Part shown: piece after piece, positions 7,509 to 57,745 of the stretch
Numbering within the stretch: the stretch's first letter is position 1
Layout of the letters: every line of letters starts with the position of its first letter
DNA from: Blastocatellia bacterium
GTDB taxonomy: Bacteria > Acidobacteriota > Blastocatellia > Pyrinomonadales > Pyrinomonadaceae
Assembly (NCBI GenBank): GCA_003168335.1
Contig: PMSM01000007.1
Coordinates: forward strand, 62,001 to 126,000
Direction: 5' to 3'
Length of the DNA: 64,000 bases
Position numbers and translations under genes: made by a program
Notes under the pieces: generated by a model
What the model was told of the DNA's origin: nothing
What the model saw: only the letters and a program-made list of their open reading frames with translations
Database searches by the model: none

Positions 7509-8963
7509 ATGCAAACCATACCTATCACGGTCGCTTACGGCGACGGCATCGGCCCTGAAATAATGGAGGCGACGCTTCACATATTGAAAGAAGCGGGCGC
7601 GAAACTTCAGATCGAAAAGATCGATATTGGCGAAAAGCTTTTTCTGGCGGGGAACTCTTCCGGGATCGATCCCAGTGCGTGGGATTCACTTCACGACACC
7701 AAGGTCTTTCTTAAGGCGCCCATCACCACGCCCCAGGGCGGCGGTTACAAGAGCCTGAACGTGACGGTGCGCAAGACACTCGGACTTTACGCGAACGTGC
7801 GGCCCTGCGTTTCGTATCATCCGTTTATTGAGACGAAGCACCCCAACATGGACATTGTGATCGTGCGCGAAAATGAAGAGGACCTTTACGCCGGCATCGA
7901 GTATCGCCAGACGGACCAGGTGATGGAGTGTTTGAAGTTGATATCGCGACCCGGCTCGGAAAAAATTGTCCGCTACGCTTTCGAATACGCCCGCCATCAT
8001 AACCGCAAGAAAGTTACCTGCTTTACCAAAGACAACATCATGAAACTGACCGACGGTCTGTTTCACAAAGTCTTCAACGAGCTCGCGGCTGAATATCCCG
8101 ACATTGAAAACGAGCATTGGATCGTGGACATCGGCGCGGCGAAGATGGCGGACACCCCAAACGTTTTTGACGTGATCGTAATGCCAAATCTTTACGGCGA
8201 CATTTTGTCGGATGTGGCCGCCCAGATTGCCGGTTCGGTTGGTCTCGCCGGCTCGGCGAACATCGGCGAGAACGTCGCTATGTTCGAAGCCATCCACGGA
8301 TCGGCGCCGCGGCGGGCGGGGCAAAACCTGGCCAACCCATCCGGGTTGCTGTTGGGCGCGGTGATGATGCTGGTGCACATCGGCCAGACGGGCACTGCCG
8401 AGAAGGTCCACAACGCCTGGCTGCGGACGATTGAAGATGGAGTTCATACCTACGATATCTACGACGAAGGCAGCAGCCAACAAAAAGTAGGGACTAAAGA
8501 ATTCGCGCAGGCGGTTGTCGATCGGCTCGGCAAGAAGCCGAAGACTCTGCGAGCCGTTACTTACAAGCAGGCGGACGTAGAGCAGGTTTATAGCGAGACG
8601 ATCGTGAAAGAGCGATCCGATACCAGAAAAGAGTTGGTGGGTATCGATGTGTATCTCGACTGGTTGAAAGGCTCGCCCGACAATCTGGGTGACGCGCTCA
8701 AAAAAATTACCCCCGACAATCTGCAACTCGGGATGATCAGTAACCGTGGGGTCAAGGTTTGGCCCGGTGGCAAATCCGAGACGTTCTGCTCGGATCACTG
8801 GCGCTGCCGGTTTATGGCCAAAGAAAAAGGCGCCACCATCACCCATCAAGAGGTCGTTGATCTGCTCGGCCGCATTGCCGGCGCCGGCTTCGATTTCGTT
8901 CAAACTGAAAGCCTCTGCAATTTTGACGGCGAGCGCGGGTATTCGCTGGATCAGGGTGAGTAA
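7509..8963 (+). CDS. icd: NADP-dependent isocitrate dehydrogenase, long (Thermus-type) form
   Basis: The ATG at 7509 gives 484 residues beginning [20 protein letters not shown], the expected N-terminus. The upstream frame from 6558 runs antisense through lepA and is rejected. The enzyme decarboxylates isocitrate to 2-oxoglutarate in the TCA cycle. Visible motifs are the substrate loop [17 protein letters not shown], the active-site region [15 protein letters not shown], the metal-binding stretch [20 protein letters not shown] and the cofactor loop [18 protein letters not shown]. The extra C-terminal domain of about 130 residues, including [19 protein letters not shown], matches the larger Thermus-type enzymes. 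Just past the stop codon a heptamer array begins. Confidence 0.93.
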
Positions 8964-9088
8964 GAATTGCGGATAGCGAAATTCGAATTGCGAATTTGTT
9001 AAATCCAAACCGCGGATCCGAGGCACGACAAATGGTGAAAAGGCGACGGTCTGAAAATCCGAAATCCGAAATCCGCAATTCGAAATCG
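8964..9088. repeat. Heptamer inverted repeat between icd and purE
   Basis: Starting one base after the icd stop, 8964-8998 is five exact 7-bp units (GAATTGC, GGATAGC and variants). At 9053-9088 the opposite arm reads as GAAAATCC followed by 7-bp units such as GAAATCC and GCAATTC. Its reverse complement again contains GAATTGC and GGATTTC in 7-bp register. The right arm lies inside the predicted purE reading frame. Confidence 0.75.
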
Positions 9089-9562
9089 CTGGTGGCCGTC
9101 ATCATGGGCAGTAAGTCGGACTGGGAGACGATGCGGGTGACGTCCGAGACACTTGATCGTTTTGGCGTCGCGCACGAATGTCGGGTCATGTCCGCTCATC
9201 GCACGCCGACGCTTGCGTCCGAATTCGCCGGCACCGCCGAATCTCGCGGCCTGGAGGTAATCATCGCCGCCGCCGGCGGCGCGGCGCATCTGGCCGGAGT
9301 CATCGCCGCGCATACCGTGTTGCCGGTGTTGGGCGTGCCGATGAAAAGCGACGCGCTTAACGGACTGGATTCACTGCTCTCCACGGTGCAGATGCCGGCA
9401 GGTATTCCGGTCGGAACGTTGGCGATTGGAAAAGCGGGCGCGACCAACGCGGCGCTGTTCGCGGTGGCAATTCTGGCTAACAGCAGACCGGCGTTAAGAG
9501 AAAAGCTGCACGAGTTCCGTGCCGAGCAGGAAAAGAAGATTCGCGAAGTGACGTTGGATTGA
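9032..9562 (+). CDS. purE: N5-carboxyaminoimidazole ribonucleotide mutase (PurE)
   Basis: PurE converts N5-CAIR to CAIR in de novo purine synthesis. The body starts with [14 protein letters not shown] and continues with [10 protein letters not shown] and [18 protein letters not shown], all family signatures. The frame is complete to EIREVTLD. From the ATG at 9032 the first about 20 residues (rich in Arg, Ser, Asn) are not PurE-like; residues 8-19 are encoded by the right arm of the heptamer repeat. A GTG at 9092 immediately before AVIMGSKSD is an alternative start, but neither start has a clear ribosome binding site. No purK follows; the next gene is on the opposite strand. Confidence 0.92.
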
Positions 9563-15799: not shown

Positions 15800-16423
15800 A
15801 TGGCAGGAGCACCAGGCGTCCAACTAATTCCATCGCCCGAAGAAATAATGCAGATTCTGAAACGCACCGGAGCGTTTCGCGAAGGGCACTTTGTCTACCC
15901 TAACGGCAAGCACACCGCGCACTATTTCCAGATGCCGCTGGCGTTTCGTTACTACGATACGGCCCGCGTGTTGGCCGTTGCGCTTAGCCGCAAGTTTCGT
16001 GTCGACCGCGACATCGCCAGCCAGTTGCCGAAAGTCTCGATCATCAGTCCCAGTTCGGGTGGAATCCCGGTCGCGTTCGGCGTGCGCGACGCGCTGAGCG
16101 CGGAACAGATTTACTGGGCCGAGCAGGAGAACGGCAAGCGCATGTTTCGCCAATACGTGAACCAGGGCGACATCAATCCCTGCATCATCGTCGACGACAT
16201 CATTCGCAGCGGCCACGCAATTGAAGAGACGGTCGGACTGGTGCGCAGCCTCGGCGCGCCGATCATCGGCTGTGGCGCGATTGTGCGTTTCACCTCGGCT
16301 CCTGATCAGCTTGAAGGCGTAGCGATCAAGTCACTGGTGGAGTTTGACGAGAAGTATTACGACTCGGCTGAGACCTGCGTCGAGTGCACGAAAGGCGCGC
16401 CGGAAGAACATGTGCGGTTCTGA
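15800..16423 (+). CDS. pyrE: Orotate phosphoribosyltransferase-like enzyme
   Basis: 207 residues with an AGGAG ribosome binding site at 15789-15793. The type I phosphoribosyltransferase PRPP loop is CIIVDDIIRSGHAIEE (two acidic residues followed by the phosphate-binding loop). Features shared with PyrE are FREGHFVYPNGKHTAHYFQM near the N-terminus and SPSSGGIPVAFGVR. PyrE makes OMP from orotate in pyrimidine synthesis. The C-terminal TCVECTKGAPEEHVRF is unusual for PyrE and is seen in a divergent OPRT-like subgroup, so adenine/orotate specificity is inferred, not shown. The stop is followed within ten bases by the IVP element. Confidence 0.78.
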   Translation: MAGAPGVQLIPSPEEIMQILKRTGAFREGHFVYPNGKHTAHYFQMPLAFRYYDTARVLAVALSRKFRVDRDIASQLPKVSIISPSSGGIPVAFGVRDALSAEQIYWAEQENGKRMFRQYVNQGDINPCIIVDDIIRSGHAIEETVGLVRSLGAPIIGCGAIVRFTSAPDQLEGVAIKSLVEFDEKYYDSAETCVECTKGAPEEHVRF

Positions 16424-16431
16424 AAGAGCTA

Positions 16432-16490
16432 GTCGGCAGACCGCAGGAAGCAGACAGCAGGAACAAAACGACAAGACAGGAAGCAGGAGG
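16432..16490 (+). repeat. Left heptamer arm of the IVP element
   Basis: 16432-16463 consists of 7-bp steps of the type GCAGACC, GCAGGAA, and matches the inverse of 16875-16899. The left arm has exactly one additional unit (ACCGCAG) compared with the right. The arm continues imperfectly to 16490, where its last unit supplies AGGAGG, the ribosome binding site of the enclosed gene. Confidence 0.85.
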
Positions 16491-16494
16491 ATCT

Positions 16495-16869
16495 ATGCCA
16501 ACCCCACAGGGCTTTAGAGATCTCAAGGTCTACCAGTTGGCTTATCGACTGGCAATGGAGGTCTTTCGTGAGTCAAAGTCCTTTCCCCGAGAAGAAAGAT
16601 ATTCGCTGACAGATCAGATTCGTCGAGCGTCAAGAAGTGTCGCTAGTAATATTGCCGAGGGTTATCGCAAGAAACGCTACCCCAAGATGTTCGTGAGCAA
16701 GATGGCTGACGCTGACGGTGAGGCGACGGAGACTCAAGTATGGCTGGATTTCGCCCGCGACTGCGGATACCTCGCCCAACAACGCCAAGGGGAATTAACG
16801 AGCGGCTATGAAGAAGTAGGCCGAATGCTGGGAAGCATGATTCTCAAGCCGGAGAGGTTCAGCGGTTGA
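16495..16869 (+). CDS. Four-helix-bundle protein of the 23S rRNA intervening-sequence (IVP/S23) family
   Basis: 124 residues. The family pattern is present: FRDLKVYQLAYRLAMEVF, then SLTDQIRRASRSVASNIAEG, YRKKRYPKMF and ETQVWLDFARDCGYL. These small basic four-helix bundles form pentamers, and the family includes Avd of diversity-generating retroelements and the protein encoded in 23S rRNA intervening sequences of Leptospira and Coxiella. Their molecular function is not established. Here the gene is not in rRNA; it sits between two heptamer arms that replace the pyrE-recR intergenic region. Its ribosome binding site lies inside the left arm, and the stop codon is followed within five bases by the right arm. 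Confidence 0.9.
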   Translation: MPTPQGFRDLKVYQLAYRLAMEVFRESKSFPREERYSLTDQIRRASRSVASNIAEGYRKKRYPKMFVSKMADADGEATETQVWLDFARDCGYLAQQRQGELTSGYEEVGRMLGSMILKPERFSG

Positions 16870-16912
16870 ACTGCTTCCTGCTGTCTGCCTCCTGCCGACT
16901 GCCTTCTGTTGT
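16870..16912 (-). repeat. Right heptamer arm of the IVP element
   Basis: 16875-16899 is the inverse of the left arm minus one heptamer. Further CTGCC-type units extend to about 16908. The arm ends seven bases before the recR stop codon, so the element separates two convergent genes. Confidence 0.85.
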
Positions 16913-16918
16913 TGTTCT

Positions 16919-17533
16919 CTACATTTCGTGCCGATTAGTCAGCGCCTTGTCCATCGTTACTTCATCGACGTATTCCAGATCGCTGCCCACGGGCATTCCC
17001 ATCGCCAGACGCGTAACCCTTAGACCCAGAGGCTTCAACAAACGGCTGATGTAGTTCGCCGTCGCTTCGCCTTCAGTGTTGGGGTTGGTGGCCAGAATTA
17101 CTTCTTGCATTTCCACGCCTTCGTTGTTCTCCGGCTTCAAACGCGGCAGCAAATTCTCCAGCCGCAGATCACTCGGACGGATGCCGCGAATGGGCGAGAG
17201 GCTTCCATGCAAAACGTGATACAGACCTTTATAGCTGCGTGTCTTTTCAACAGCTACCAGGTCGTAGGGCTGCTCTACAATGCAGATCAGGGAATGATCG
17301 CGGGATGGCAGGGTGCAGAAGCGGCAGGGATTGACGTCGGTGAGATTATTACAGACTGAGCATTCGGTGATGCGCTGCTTCACTTCACGTAAAGCTTCGA
17401 TGAAGCGCTCGACCTCGGCTGCGGGCGTGCGCAAAATGTGAAACGCAAGTCGCTGGGCAGACTTCTGCCCGATGCTGGGCAGGCGTTTGAATTCGTCGAT
17501 TAGTTTTGTAACGGGCTCTGCGTAATCAAGCAT
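16919..17533 (-). CDS. recR: Recombination mediator RecR
   Basis: 204 residues, normal for RecR. The N-terminal helix-hairpin-helix region is LPSIGQKSAQRLAFHIL. The zinc finger is C58, C61, C70 and C73 (CSVCNNL...CRFC). The Toprim domain carries ICIVEQPYDLVAVEKT and ILATNPNTEGEATANYI. RecR acts with RecO/RecF to load RecA on gapped DNA. As in many bacteria it lies downstream of ybaB, but the 147-bp gap between them is occupied by a heptamer inverted repeat. The start codon has no visible ribosome binding site because the repeat abuts it. Confidence 0.97.
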   Translation of the reverse strand: MLDYAEPVTKLIDEFKRLPSIGQKSAQRLAFHILRTPAAEVERFIEALREVKQRITECSVCNNLTDVNPCRFCTLPSRDHSLICIVEQPYDLVAVEKTRSYKGLYHVLHGSLSPIRGIRPSDLRLENLLPRLKPENNEGVEMQEVILATNPNTEGEATANYISRLLKPLGLRVTRLAMGMPVGSDLEYVDEVTMDKALTNRHEM

Positions 17534-17539
17534 TGCGAT

Positions 17540-17660
17540 CTTTGTACTTTGAACTTGGAGCTTGGTGCTTTGTATTCTCCCCCCGAATGGGGTGTCTGTG
17601 CGATTCTGCCGCGCACGGTTCTTAAGAGATCAAAGTTCAAAGTACGAAGTACAAAGAACA
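17540..17660. repeat. Heptamer inverted repeat (ACAAAGT type) between ybaB and recR
   Basis: Read on the minus strand the left arm (17540-17577) is a 7-bp series ACAAAGC, ACCAAGC and so on. The right arm (about 17626-17660) on the plus strand is TCAAAGT, TCAAAGT followed by ACGAAGT-type units. The loop contains a CCCCGAATGGGG hairpin. No gene is carried. Confidence 0.8.
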
Positions 17661-17680
17661 CAGCTCACTCAATCGGGTGG

Positions 17681-33486: not shown

Positions 33487-33584
33487 AGAGGTCATAGTGA
33501 TAGAGGTCAGAGGCCAGGAGTCAGAGGTCAATAGGAAAGGAGTTGAACGCCTTTACTGACCGCTGATCTCTGACCGCTGACCTC
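33487..33584. repeat. Heptamer inverted repeat (AGAGGTC type) between tRNA-Ser and gltX
   Basis: The left arm (33487-33532) is a 7-bp series AGAGGTC, AGAGGCC with a partly decayed start. The right arm (33555-33584) inverts to GAGGTCA, GCGGTCA and so on. The right arm ends nine bases before the tRNA 3' end. Confidence 0.8.
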
Positions 33585-33592
33585 ACGATTTC

Positions 33593-56545: not shown

Positions 56546-57282
56546 TGACAAGGAAGAGAGGCGGAGATATGGAGACGCGGAGACGCGGTGAAACTTTTTT
56601 CTCCGCGTCTCCGCGTCTCCGCGTCTCCGTGTCTCATCAGGGCTTCTCGCTGATAGAGTTGGTGATCACGATCACCGTGCTTGCCATTCTCACTCTCGGC
56701 GTCGTGCCTCTTGCTCAGGTAGCGGTCAAGCGACAGAAAGAGCAGGAACTGCGCGAGTCGCTGCGCGAAATGCGCGAAGCGATCGATCAGTTTCACCGGG
56801 AGGCTTTGGCCGGCGCGCAAATGCAAGCTAATCAACAGCAGGGGCAGACAACGACAACGCCCAATCAGCCCAACCCGAACCAGCAAAATCAGCCGCCGAA
56901 TATATTCGGCGATCCGCGCGTCCGGGTTGCGATCACCGACCAGACAATTTTCACGGCGGACAACATTGATCGCTATCCGCCTGATTTGGACACGCTCGTT
57001 AAGGGCGTCAGCGTGCTGCCCATAACCGCCGGAGGACTGGGTGGGCGTGGCAATGCGAATGTGACGGCGCTTCAGGCAACCAGCGAAGCGGCCCCGATTC
57101 CGAAGACCAAAGTTTATCTGCGCCGGATCCCGGTTGATCCAATGACCGGCAAAGCCGATTGGGTATTTCGCTCTTGTTACGATCCTTCGGACTCAACCTC
57201 TACGGGCGGGGAAAACGTTTTCGACGTCCACTCGAAATCGGAAGGTAAGGCATTGAATGGAGAGAAGTACAGTGACTGGTGA
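56545..57282 (+). CDS. Type II pseudopilin (GspG-like), leader partly repeat-derived
   Basis: 245 residues; a GTG overlaps the secretin TAG, with an ATG at 56569 as alternative. The prepilin peptidase site is at G33/F34 (SHQGFSLIELVITITVLAIL) with the required Glu at +5. The processed body is helical, then has VKRQKEQELRESLREMREAI, and a C-terminal PVDPMTGKADWVFRSCYDPS loop as in GspG. Residues about 9-31 of the leader are encoded by a perfect octamer inverted repeat (GGAGACGC/GCGTCTCC). The leader is unusually long. Confidence 0.85.
   Translation: MTRKRGGDMETRRRGETFFSASPRLRVSVSHQGFSLIELVITITVLAILTLGVVPLAQVAVKRQKEQELRESLREMREAIDQFHREALAGAQMQANQQQGQTTTTPNQPNPNQQNQPPNIFGDPRVRVAITDQTIFTADNIDRYPPDLDTLVKGVSVLPITAGGLGGRGNANVTALQATSEAAPIPKTKVYLRRIPVDPMTGKADWVFRSCYDPSDSTSTGGENVFDVHSKSEGKALNGEKYSDW
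56553..56635 (+). repeat. Octamer inverted repeat inside the pseudopilin leader
   Basis: GGAGACGC tandem units at 56571-56588 pair with GCGTCTCC tandem units at 56601-56635 around a short loop (GTGAAACTTTTTT). The whole element is translated in frame. Confidence 0.9.
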
Positions 57283-57745
57283 GAACAGTAAGCAGAAGGC
57301 AGTAAGCAGTAAGCAGACAGGGCTAAGCCGCAGAGTGCTGCCTACTGCCGCCTGCCTACTGCCTTCTAATTCCCGAGGTTTCACCCTCCTCGAACTAATG
57401 ATCGTTATTTCGATCATCATCATTCTGGCGTCCGTGGCGTTGCCGCAATATCAAAAGACAATCATGCACGCGCGTGAGACGGTTCTGCACGACGACCTTT
57501 TCAGGATGCGGTCGTTACTCGATCAGTACGCGGCAGACAAAGGCAAACTACCGCAATCGCTCGATGATCTCGTCTCTGAGCATTACTTGCGCGAGATTCC
57601 GAAAGACCCGATTACCGACAACAAGGATTGGACGGTAGTGACCGGCGATGATCCCTACTCGACTGAAGGCTCGAGCGGAGTTACCGACGTGCACAGTTCA
57701 TCGGGCGACACTTCGACTGAAGGCACGCCATATAGTGAATGGTGA
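57257..57745 (+). CDS. Second type II pseudopilin, leader partly repeat-derived
   Basis: 162 residues from ATG 57257, overlapping the first pseudopilin by 26 bp. The cleavage site is G41/F42 (SRGFTLLELMIVISIIIILA) with Glu at +5. The mature part has a pilin body and ends with LREIPKDPITDNKDWTVVTG and DDPYSTEG, a GspG-like C-terminus. Residues 10-37 of the leader are encoded by a heptamer inverted repeat at 57284-57367. The frame is kept by the repeat on both sides. Confidence 0.83.
   Translation: MERSTVTGENSKQKAVSSKQTGLSRRVLPTAACLLPSNSRGFTLLELMIVISIIIILASVALPQYQKTIMHARETVLHDDLFRMRSLLDQYAADKGKLPQSLDDLVSEHYLREIPKDPITDNKDWTVVTGDDPYSTEGSSGVTDVHSSSGDTSTEGTPYSEW
57284..57367 (+). repeat. Heptamer inverted repeat inside the second pseudopilin leader
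   Basis: Left arm 57284-57325 in 7-bp steps (AGCAGAA, GGCAGTA) and right arm 57337-57367 inverse (CTACTGCCTTCT end). It begins one base after the stop codon of the first pseudopilin. The unit vocabulary is the same as at 42574 and 11181. Confidence 0.9.

Follow-up and report, generated by a model that had tools for sequence, protein, structure and literature searches.

The IVP gene of the window (the whole 64,000-nucleotide stretch of acidobacterial DNA analyzed here) and the two inverted arrays of 7-bp units that enclose it probably form a single small mobile element of about 0.45 kb, inserted at a gene boundary and resembling the RAYT/REPIN systems in its organization; we put the probability of this reading at roughly 0.7. 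The element starts directly 3′ of the stop codon of a pyrE-like gene, and its features in the window are as follows.

15800 to 16423, plus strand: pyrE-like phosphoribosyltransferase gene (open reading frame; synteny with recR/ybaB in the family)
16432 to 16463, plus strand: left arm, an array of 7-bp units on the G-rich strand (GTCGGCA, GACCGCA, GGAAGCA, GACAGCA, then GGAA)
16474 to 16490, plus strand: short degenerate continuation of the left array (GACAGGAAGCAGGAGG), which carries AGGAGG; the direct repeat CAGGAAGCAG occurs at 16444 and 16477
16495 to 16869, plus strand: IVP gene encoding a four-helix bundle of 124 amino acids (PF05635, TIGR02436, AlphaFold2 model)
16871 to 16912, minus strand: right arm, an inverted array of 7-bp units, C-rich on the plus strand (arm comparison, TRF)
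16919 to 17533, minus strand: recR, whose 3′ end adjoins the element (open reading frame; orthologs in 56 of 60 family genomes)

An earlier note on this DNA had described an intact IVP gene between inverted arms that differ by exactly one heptamer, and both parts of that description hold. The open reading frame is intact, and the left arm at 16432 to 16463 (GTCGGCAGACCGCAGGAAGCAGACAGCAGGAA) and the reverse complement of the right arm at 16875 to 16899 (GTCGGCAGGAGGCAGACAGCAGGAA) are identical at 24 of 25 bases after the 7-nucleotide unit ACCGCAG is taken out. In an ungapped comparison, positions 16435 to 16463 and 16875 to 16903 match at 26 of 29 bases, and TRF finds period-14 (2 × 7) arrays at 16436 to 16463 and 16871 to 16912. 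The arm score of 23 was reached by none of 3,000 dinucleotide shuffles, which rules out a chance origin of the arms, and at none of 1,047 equally spaced positions in the window. The right array begins 1 to 5 bases past the IVP stop codon, close to it as had been reported. The ribosome binding site had been placed inside the left arm; AGGAGG (16485 to 16490) in fact lies in the separate degenerate piece of the array at 16474 to 16490.

By sequence and by fold, the encoded protein belongs to the IVP/S23 four-helix-bundle family. It scores 117.5 bits against PF05635 (cutoff, 33.8) and 108.2 bits against TIGR02436 (cutoff, 24), and it matches the Avd protein bAvd at 42.7 bits. The AlphaFold2 model consists of four helices with a pLDDT of 96, and the nearest solved folds among the matches listed are 2gsc (Z = 19.7) and 2rld, followed by Avd (Z of about 15), the scores for the three ranging from 14 to 20. 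Domain searches recognized no nuclease or transposase domain and no Y1 domain, and the fold relatives listed by Foldseek/VIA are IVP/Avd proteins and generic helical bundles, none of them enzyme-like. With the query used here, no IVP was found in 50,697 phage records at an E value of 1e−6, and a phage origin was set aside.

The arms are a general property of IVP loci. In seven genomes of the window's genus, the flanks of 29 of 31 IVP genes have a 7-bp periodicity, as the earlier note had asked of related genomes, and in this set the two arms of one locus match each other with a mean score of 19.8 versus 8.7 (standard deviation, 3.2) for arms of different loci. Inverted arms together with a lag-7 array were found at 62 of 100 IVP loci, at 5 of 61 open reading frames neighboring IVP loci, and at none of 288 ordinary open reading frames of the window genome. 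A multiphylum scan with an IVP alignment, covering one genome per species, gave 80 loci chosen by protein alone, of which 73 were usable. Inverted arms scoring at least 15 were present at 49 of the 73, compared to 3.3% of cross-locus pairings, and nine of the 73 had neither arms nor array. The record titles assign the positive loci to at least 11 phyla (Acidobacteriota, Bacillota, Pseudomonadota, Planctomycetota, Kiritimatiellota, Bacteroidota, Gemmatimonadota, Chloroflexota, Cyanobacteriota, Patescibacteria, and Verrucomicrobiota), which rules out a peculiarity of the Acidobacteria.

The best lag was 7 upstream at 74 and downstream at 60 of 104 IVP loci and was sometimes 8 or 9. The period was the same on both sides at 57 of 62 loci; it was 8 at six loci and 9 at one. 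Periods of 8 or 9 were seen in a hairpin of the window (56562 to 56639) and at the IVP loci L071, L101, L104, L110, and L132, and such hairpins and elements are scattered across IVP diversity. At two Xanthomonadaceae IVP loci, only one flank carries an array. Orientation is also regular: the G-rich strand is that of the 5′ arm at 63 of 67 IVP loci, the upstream gene runs in the same direction as the IVP gene in 101 of 116 cases, and its stop codon is mostly no more than about 12 bases from the start of the left arm.

The sequence of the unit varies from locus to locus (TCAGAGG, AAATCGT, TTTCGAG, GTGGTTA, GGACTAG, and others) and follows the protein. At nonorthologous loci, IVP protein similarity predicts unit similarity (Mantel r = 0.20, reached in 0 of 2,000 permutations), and the unit GTGGTTA is common to IVPs of the gammaproteobacterium Thiohalocapsa, a Ruminococcus, and an acidobacterium. 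This suggests that gene and arms move together, with the protein reading the unit. In the window genome (contig C14, 263408 to 264724), the IVP elements L002 (TCAGAGG) and L003 (GAATTTC) are adjacent and on one strand but differ in both protein and unit. A gene flanked by inverted cognate repeats that covary with its protein is also what is found for RAYTs and REPINs, as an analogy, since the repeats here are not REPs.

Presence/absence variation of the kind expected from the earlier note's proposal of an insertion element at a gene boundary was found on cyanobacterial plasmids. On plasmid C of Trichormus variabilis and on a Scytonema plasmid, a conjugation-operon gene is followed, after its stop codon, by arms and an IVP gene (unit AGGAGTC/AGAATTC). 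Plasmids of Fremyella, Nostoc linckia, and Nostoc carneum, about 98% identical around this site, lack the element and have the exact join AAAAAGTAA/TTAACAAATAAATATG, as is general for insertion elements. These empty sites contain no hairpin of any kind; therefore, arms and gene arrived together. One of the filled copies has a left arm exactly 14 bp, or two units, longer than that of the other, and the suggestion that units are gained and lost is thus borne out between orthologous copies. Decay intermediates occur at the same site: a Nostoc copy (C052) is internally deleted, and Brasilonema has a gene-less hairpin with the unit of the filled T. variabilis and Scytonema copies. Further pairs of filled and empty sites were found at two neighboring junctions of a Nostoc conjugation operon and at nrdB-nrdA, cas6-cas4, and cas10-cmr3. 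When three copies that have one unit in common and lie in unrelated contexts were compared, the alignment was confined to the stretch between the arms. The three-copy alignment suggests that TTCTA is part of the end of the element, and TTCTA was for this reason dropped as a target site duplication. No consistent target site duplication was found in the filled/empty comparisons; one pair has GTAA, and the others show sequences that are ambiguous or that the end of the element accounts for.

Heptamer hairpins without a gene are widespread in the same genomes. Five from the window illustrate their units.

8960 to 9090: gene-less inverted heptamer hairpin, unit GAATTTC/CGGATTT, of the unit family of the resident IVP L003
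11176 to 11269: gene-less inverted heptamer hairpin, unit GCAGTAA/TTACTGC (folding z = −4.6)
17537 to 17668: gene-less inverted heptamer hairpin between recR and ybaB, unit TACTTTG/CAAAGTA
33498 to 33590: gene-less inverted heptamer hairpin, unit AGAGGTC, of the unit family of the resident IVP L002 (folding z = −6.7)
57284 to 57367: gene-less inverted heptamer hairpin, unit GCAGTAA/GGCAGTA, which is related to that of the window IVP

Clean empty sites between pyrE and recR, which the earlier note had sought in sister genomes, are mostly not what is there. In the 60 genomes of the family, the pyrE-recR and recR-ybaB junctions mostly hold gene-less hairpins of inverted 7-bp arrays, 60 to 160 bp long, whose unit varies from genus to genus and, in some cases, among members of a single genus; only the window genome and a sister genome (G001) have IVP genes at these junctions. 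The sister genome carries an IVP gene in the recR-ybaB junction, where the window has the gene-less hairpin. Its pyrE-recR IVP is orthologous to that of the window (L001 versus L015; about 80% similar in sequence, with a related unit) and points the other way in these two species of one genus, the outcome expected of recombination between inverted arms.

The window genome has 38 arrays with a lag of 7 in the 464 kb covered, compared to 0 to 6 for each other lag from 4 to 13, and no genes other than IVPs were found between array pairs that lie far apart. The units GAATTTC (L003) and AGAGGTC (L002) recur in several gene-less arrays. Many gene-less hairpins match no resident IVP unit (0 of 5 in genome G006). 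The 5′ arm is the G-rich one in 30 of the 33 gene-less hairpins that have a skew. Within the phylum, 20 genomes with IVP genes had 55 lag-7 arrays in 792 kb and 20 genomes without them had 3 in 619 kb (6.95 versus 0.48 per 100 kb; P = 0.0009), some of the sampled contigs of the former having been selected for carrying IVPs. Several of the IVP-carrying genomes had no lag-7 array in the 40 kb sampled. Abundance of gene-less repeats thus correlates with carriage of the gene, as it does for RAYTs and REPINs.

The IVP protein family also occurs in the intervening sequences (IVSs) of 23S rRNA genes in Leptospira, Coxiella, and others, in which it likewise lies between inverted repeats. The 23S rRNA IVS of Coxiella has a 28-bp terminal inverted repeat and tandem GACAGAT heptamers upstream of the S23p open reading frame, in 2 or 3 copies depending on the strain (published in 2016; PMC4990558). 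In Azospirillum lipoferum, an IVP gene lies inside a 23S rRNA gene (plasmid AZO_p2, 12898 to 16245; Rfam LSU; locus L242) with heptamer arrays on both sides (GGACAGA/GGACGGA and inverse). This locus is a direct bridge between rRNA IVSs and intergenic IVP elements, and the rRNA IVS is a special case of the IVP element that landed in a 23S rRNA gene. The window copy has the architecture of an rRNA IVS, an IVP reading frame between inverted repeats, at a different location, the boundary between the protein genes pyrE and recR. Elements of the window type also differ from rRNA IVSs in having lineage-specific units that follow the protein, gene-less copies throughout the genome, and no RNA pairing signature.

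Excision of the Coxiella IVS by RNase III has been demonstrated (PMC4990558), and one may ask whether all IVP elements act on RNA, their arms pairing in the transcript so that RNase III removes the IVP from an operon mRNA and host expression is protected, with the heptamers incidental. The predominance of codirectional upstream neighbors fits such a role, as does the predicted fold of the window RNA, in which the arms are paired; the latter is only at z = −2.0 relative to shuffled sequences. The mismatches in the arms speak against it. On the sense strand, G-U and A-C mismatches are equally common in IVP arms (81 versus 77), and in the gene-less hairpins transcribed with recR there are 26 and 36, respectively. 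The excess of G-U over A-C expected of arms kept for pairing in RNA is absent, so pairing appears to be kept at the level of DNA and not of RNA, through copying, conversion, or recognition. The emphasis that the earlier note had placed on RNA processing is therefore not supported: no selection for RNA stems is visible. Action on RNA also leaves the dependence of the unit on the protein clade unexplained, and we regard it as quite unlikely.

Alternatively, the hairpins could come first, as independent products of the host into whose loops the IVP gene inserts as a passenger. Gene-less hairpins are far more numerous than IVP genes and occupy the same junctions across the family, including pyrE-recR in most relatives, as expected from this order of events; the unit nevertheless tracks IVP phylogeny across phyla and at nonorthologous sites, the empty plasmid sites have no hairpin, and gene-less arrays are rare in IVP-free genomes, which together make a host origin unlikely. 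Very improbable is a third possibility, that IVP is an RNA- or DNA-binding regulator of its own translation acting through heptamers in the leader, with the right arm and mobility being secondary. It would account for a ribosome binding site in or beside the left array of the window, and TAACTGA repeats just 5′ of start codons in Beggiatoaceae have been proposed as regulator sites (PMC4679880). The right arm, located 3′ of the stop codon, matches the left one better than the arm of any other locus does, and neither presence/absence variation nor gene-less copies would be expected of a leader control site.

The preferred reading, a mobile DNA element consisting of the gene and its arrays, has a parallel in the RAYT (TnpA-REP) systems. 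RAYT genes always lie between inverted REPs with which they coevolve, and REP abundance correlates with the presence of a RAYT gene (PMC2817692). Common to both systems are a single gene with inverted cognate repeats, covariation of the two, an intergenic location, and enrichment of gene-less palindromes in carriers. The proteins are unrelated: IVP, a four-helix bundle of the Avd/IVP type, lacks the Y1 HUH nuclease. The repeats differ as well, being arrays of 7-bp (or 8- or 9-bp) steps in one case and imperfect palindromes of 20 to 40 bp with a conserved tetranucleotide in the other. The IVP element is therefore not a RAYT, as the defining Y1 nuclease is absent, even though it has three of the RAYT features. 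MITEs are similar in that they are short, have inverted repeats but no gene, and descend from a longer element with coding capacity, but their ends are fixed terminal inverted repeats read by a DDE transposase, in contrast to variable tandem heptamer arrays. Avd of the diversity-generating retroelements is homologous to IVP in fold and sequence; unlike those retroelements, the IVP element has no reverse transcriptase and no TR/VR repeats.

We propose that the element inserts at gene boundaries, usually just 3′ of a stop codon and along the direction of transcription, with the IVP protein as its only gene product. The protein would recognize, in DNA form, the array that belongs to its lineage, probably by reading several 7-bp steps as an oligomer or by way of a hairpin of the single-stranded arms, and may then recruit strand-transfer or repair functions of the host to copy or move the DNA between the arrays. 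Hairpins that lost the gene, or that were mobilized in trans, would persist as the gene-less inverted heptamer pairs found between genes. A reverse transcriptase is not required, because genomes with 9 to 17 IVP genes (G006, G056, G190, G198, and others) have no detectable match to one, and its action in trans was rejected. The sole trace of a reverse transcriptase in the window genome is a weak match with an in-frame TAG (contig C10, 225686 to 226234). Most of the IVP-carrying genomes tested have Y1 genes elsewhere; a requirement for Y1/RAYT activity in trans was set aside on the basis of two genomes (G180 and G071) that have 7 to 8 IVPs and no Y1 genes, with the proviso that drafts may miss genes. 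A broader interpretation, for which we consider the chances to be about even, is that IVP elements are a separate minimal class of mobile DNA, in which a nonenzymatic four-helix-bundle protein recognizes the fixed step (7 bp, rarely 8 or 9) at which a lineage-specific tandem unit repeats and mobilizes its own hairpin by means of host enzymes, and that much of the heptamer repetition between bacterial genes stems from them, with the rRNA IVS a minor special case.

Tandem heptamers were the most abundant intergenic periodic repeats in a 2018 survey of 7,006 prokaryotic genomes, which reported no clear clue to their function (PMC6344855). The cyanobacterial STRRs, the Xanthomonas GGGAATC repeats, and the Beggiatoaceae TAACTGA repeats are similar to IVP arms in period, intergenic location, and G-rich units. 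The Xanthomonas repeats form 70 to 75 convergent inverted pairs (PMC4692102), and the complement of TAACTGA, TCAGTTA, is present in an IVP arm (L066). Among the IVP loci collected here, no Xanthomonas IVP with the exact unit GGGAATC was found; the X. codiaei locus (L102) carries CGGGGAC, and in just one of its flanks. In contrast to our reading, these reports regard the repeats as regulatory or quadruplex sequences, and the passages searched name no IVP gene (PMC4692102, PMC4679880); no passage searched in the open-license full text of the heptamer-repeat literature (PMC4692102, PMC4679880, PMC6344855) ties the repeats to IVP genes. The ends of IVP elements probably explain much of these repeats, and the link offers a concrete, testable origin for intergenic heptamers as ends and remnants of such elements. 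The earlier note had raised the question of whether heptamer arms at IVP genes are new. Heptamers as such are not, having been published for the Coxiella IVS, the only paper on IVPs with heptamers found in open-license full text (PMC4990558); no description of their generality, of the covariation of unit and protein, or of the link to gene-less hairpins was found in the same literature. If correct, our reading would give a role to the orphan and very common “four helix bundle protein/S23/23S rRNA IVP” family and a general context to the rRNA IVS.

Some target sites are recurrent, with one junction hit in different genera and, in one case, by different IVP clades with different units. IVPs L007, L018, and L017 lie at a junction before an ABC transporter gene, L099, L102, and L118 lie at carA-carB, and L074 and L117 lie at nuoC-nuoD (carA/carB and nuo identities from translated ends). 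An association of IVP with CRISPR adaptation modules has been published (PMC10910872), and such associations with operons may reflect insertion rather than function. IVP genes lie inside CRISPR operons of Anabaena 90 (cas6-cas4, L225) and Picosynechococcus 7003 (cas10-cmr3, L238), and close relatives lack them. In Dolichospermum, the cas6-cas4 junction (L233) has no IVP gene and is filled by an inverted repeat of a different type, GTTGGGTT...AACCCAAC.
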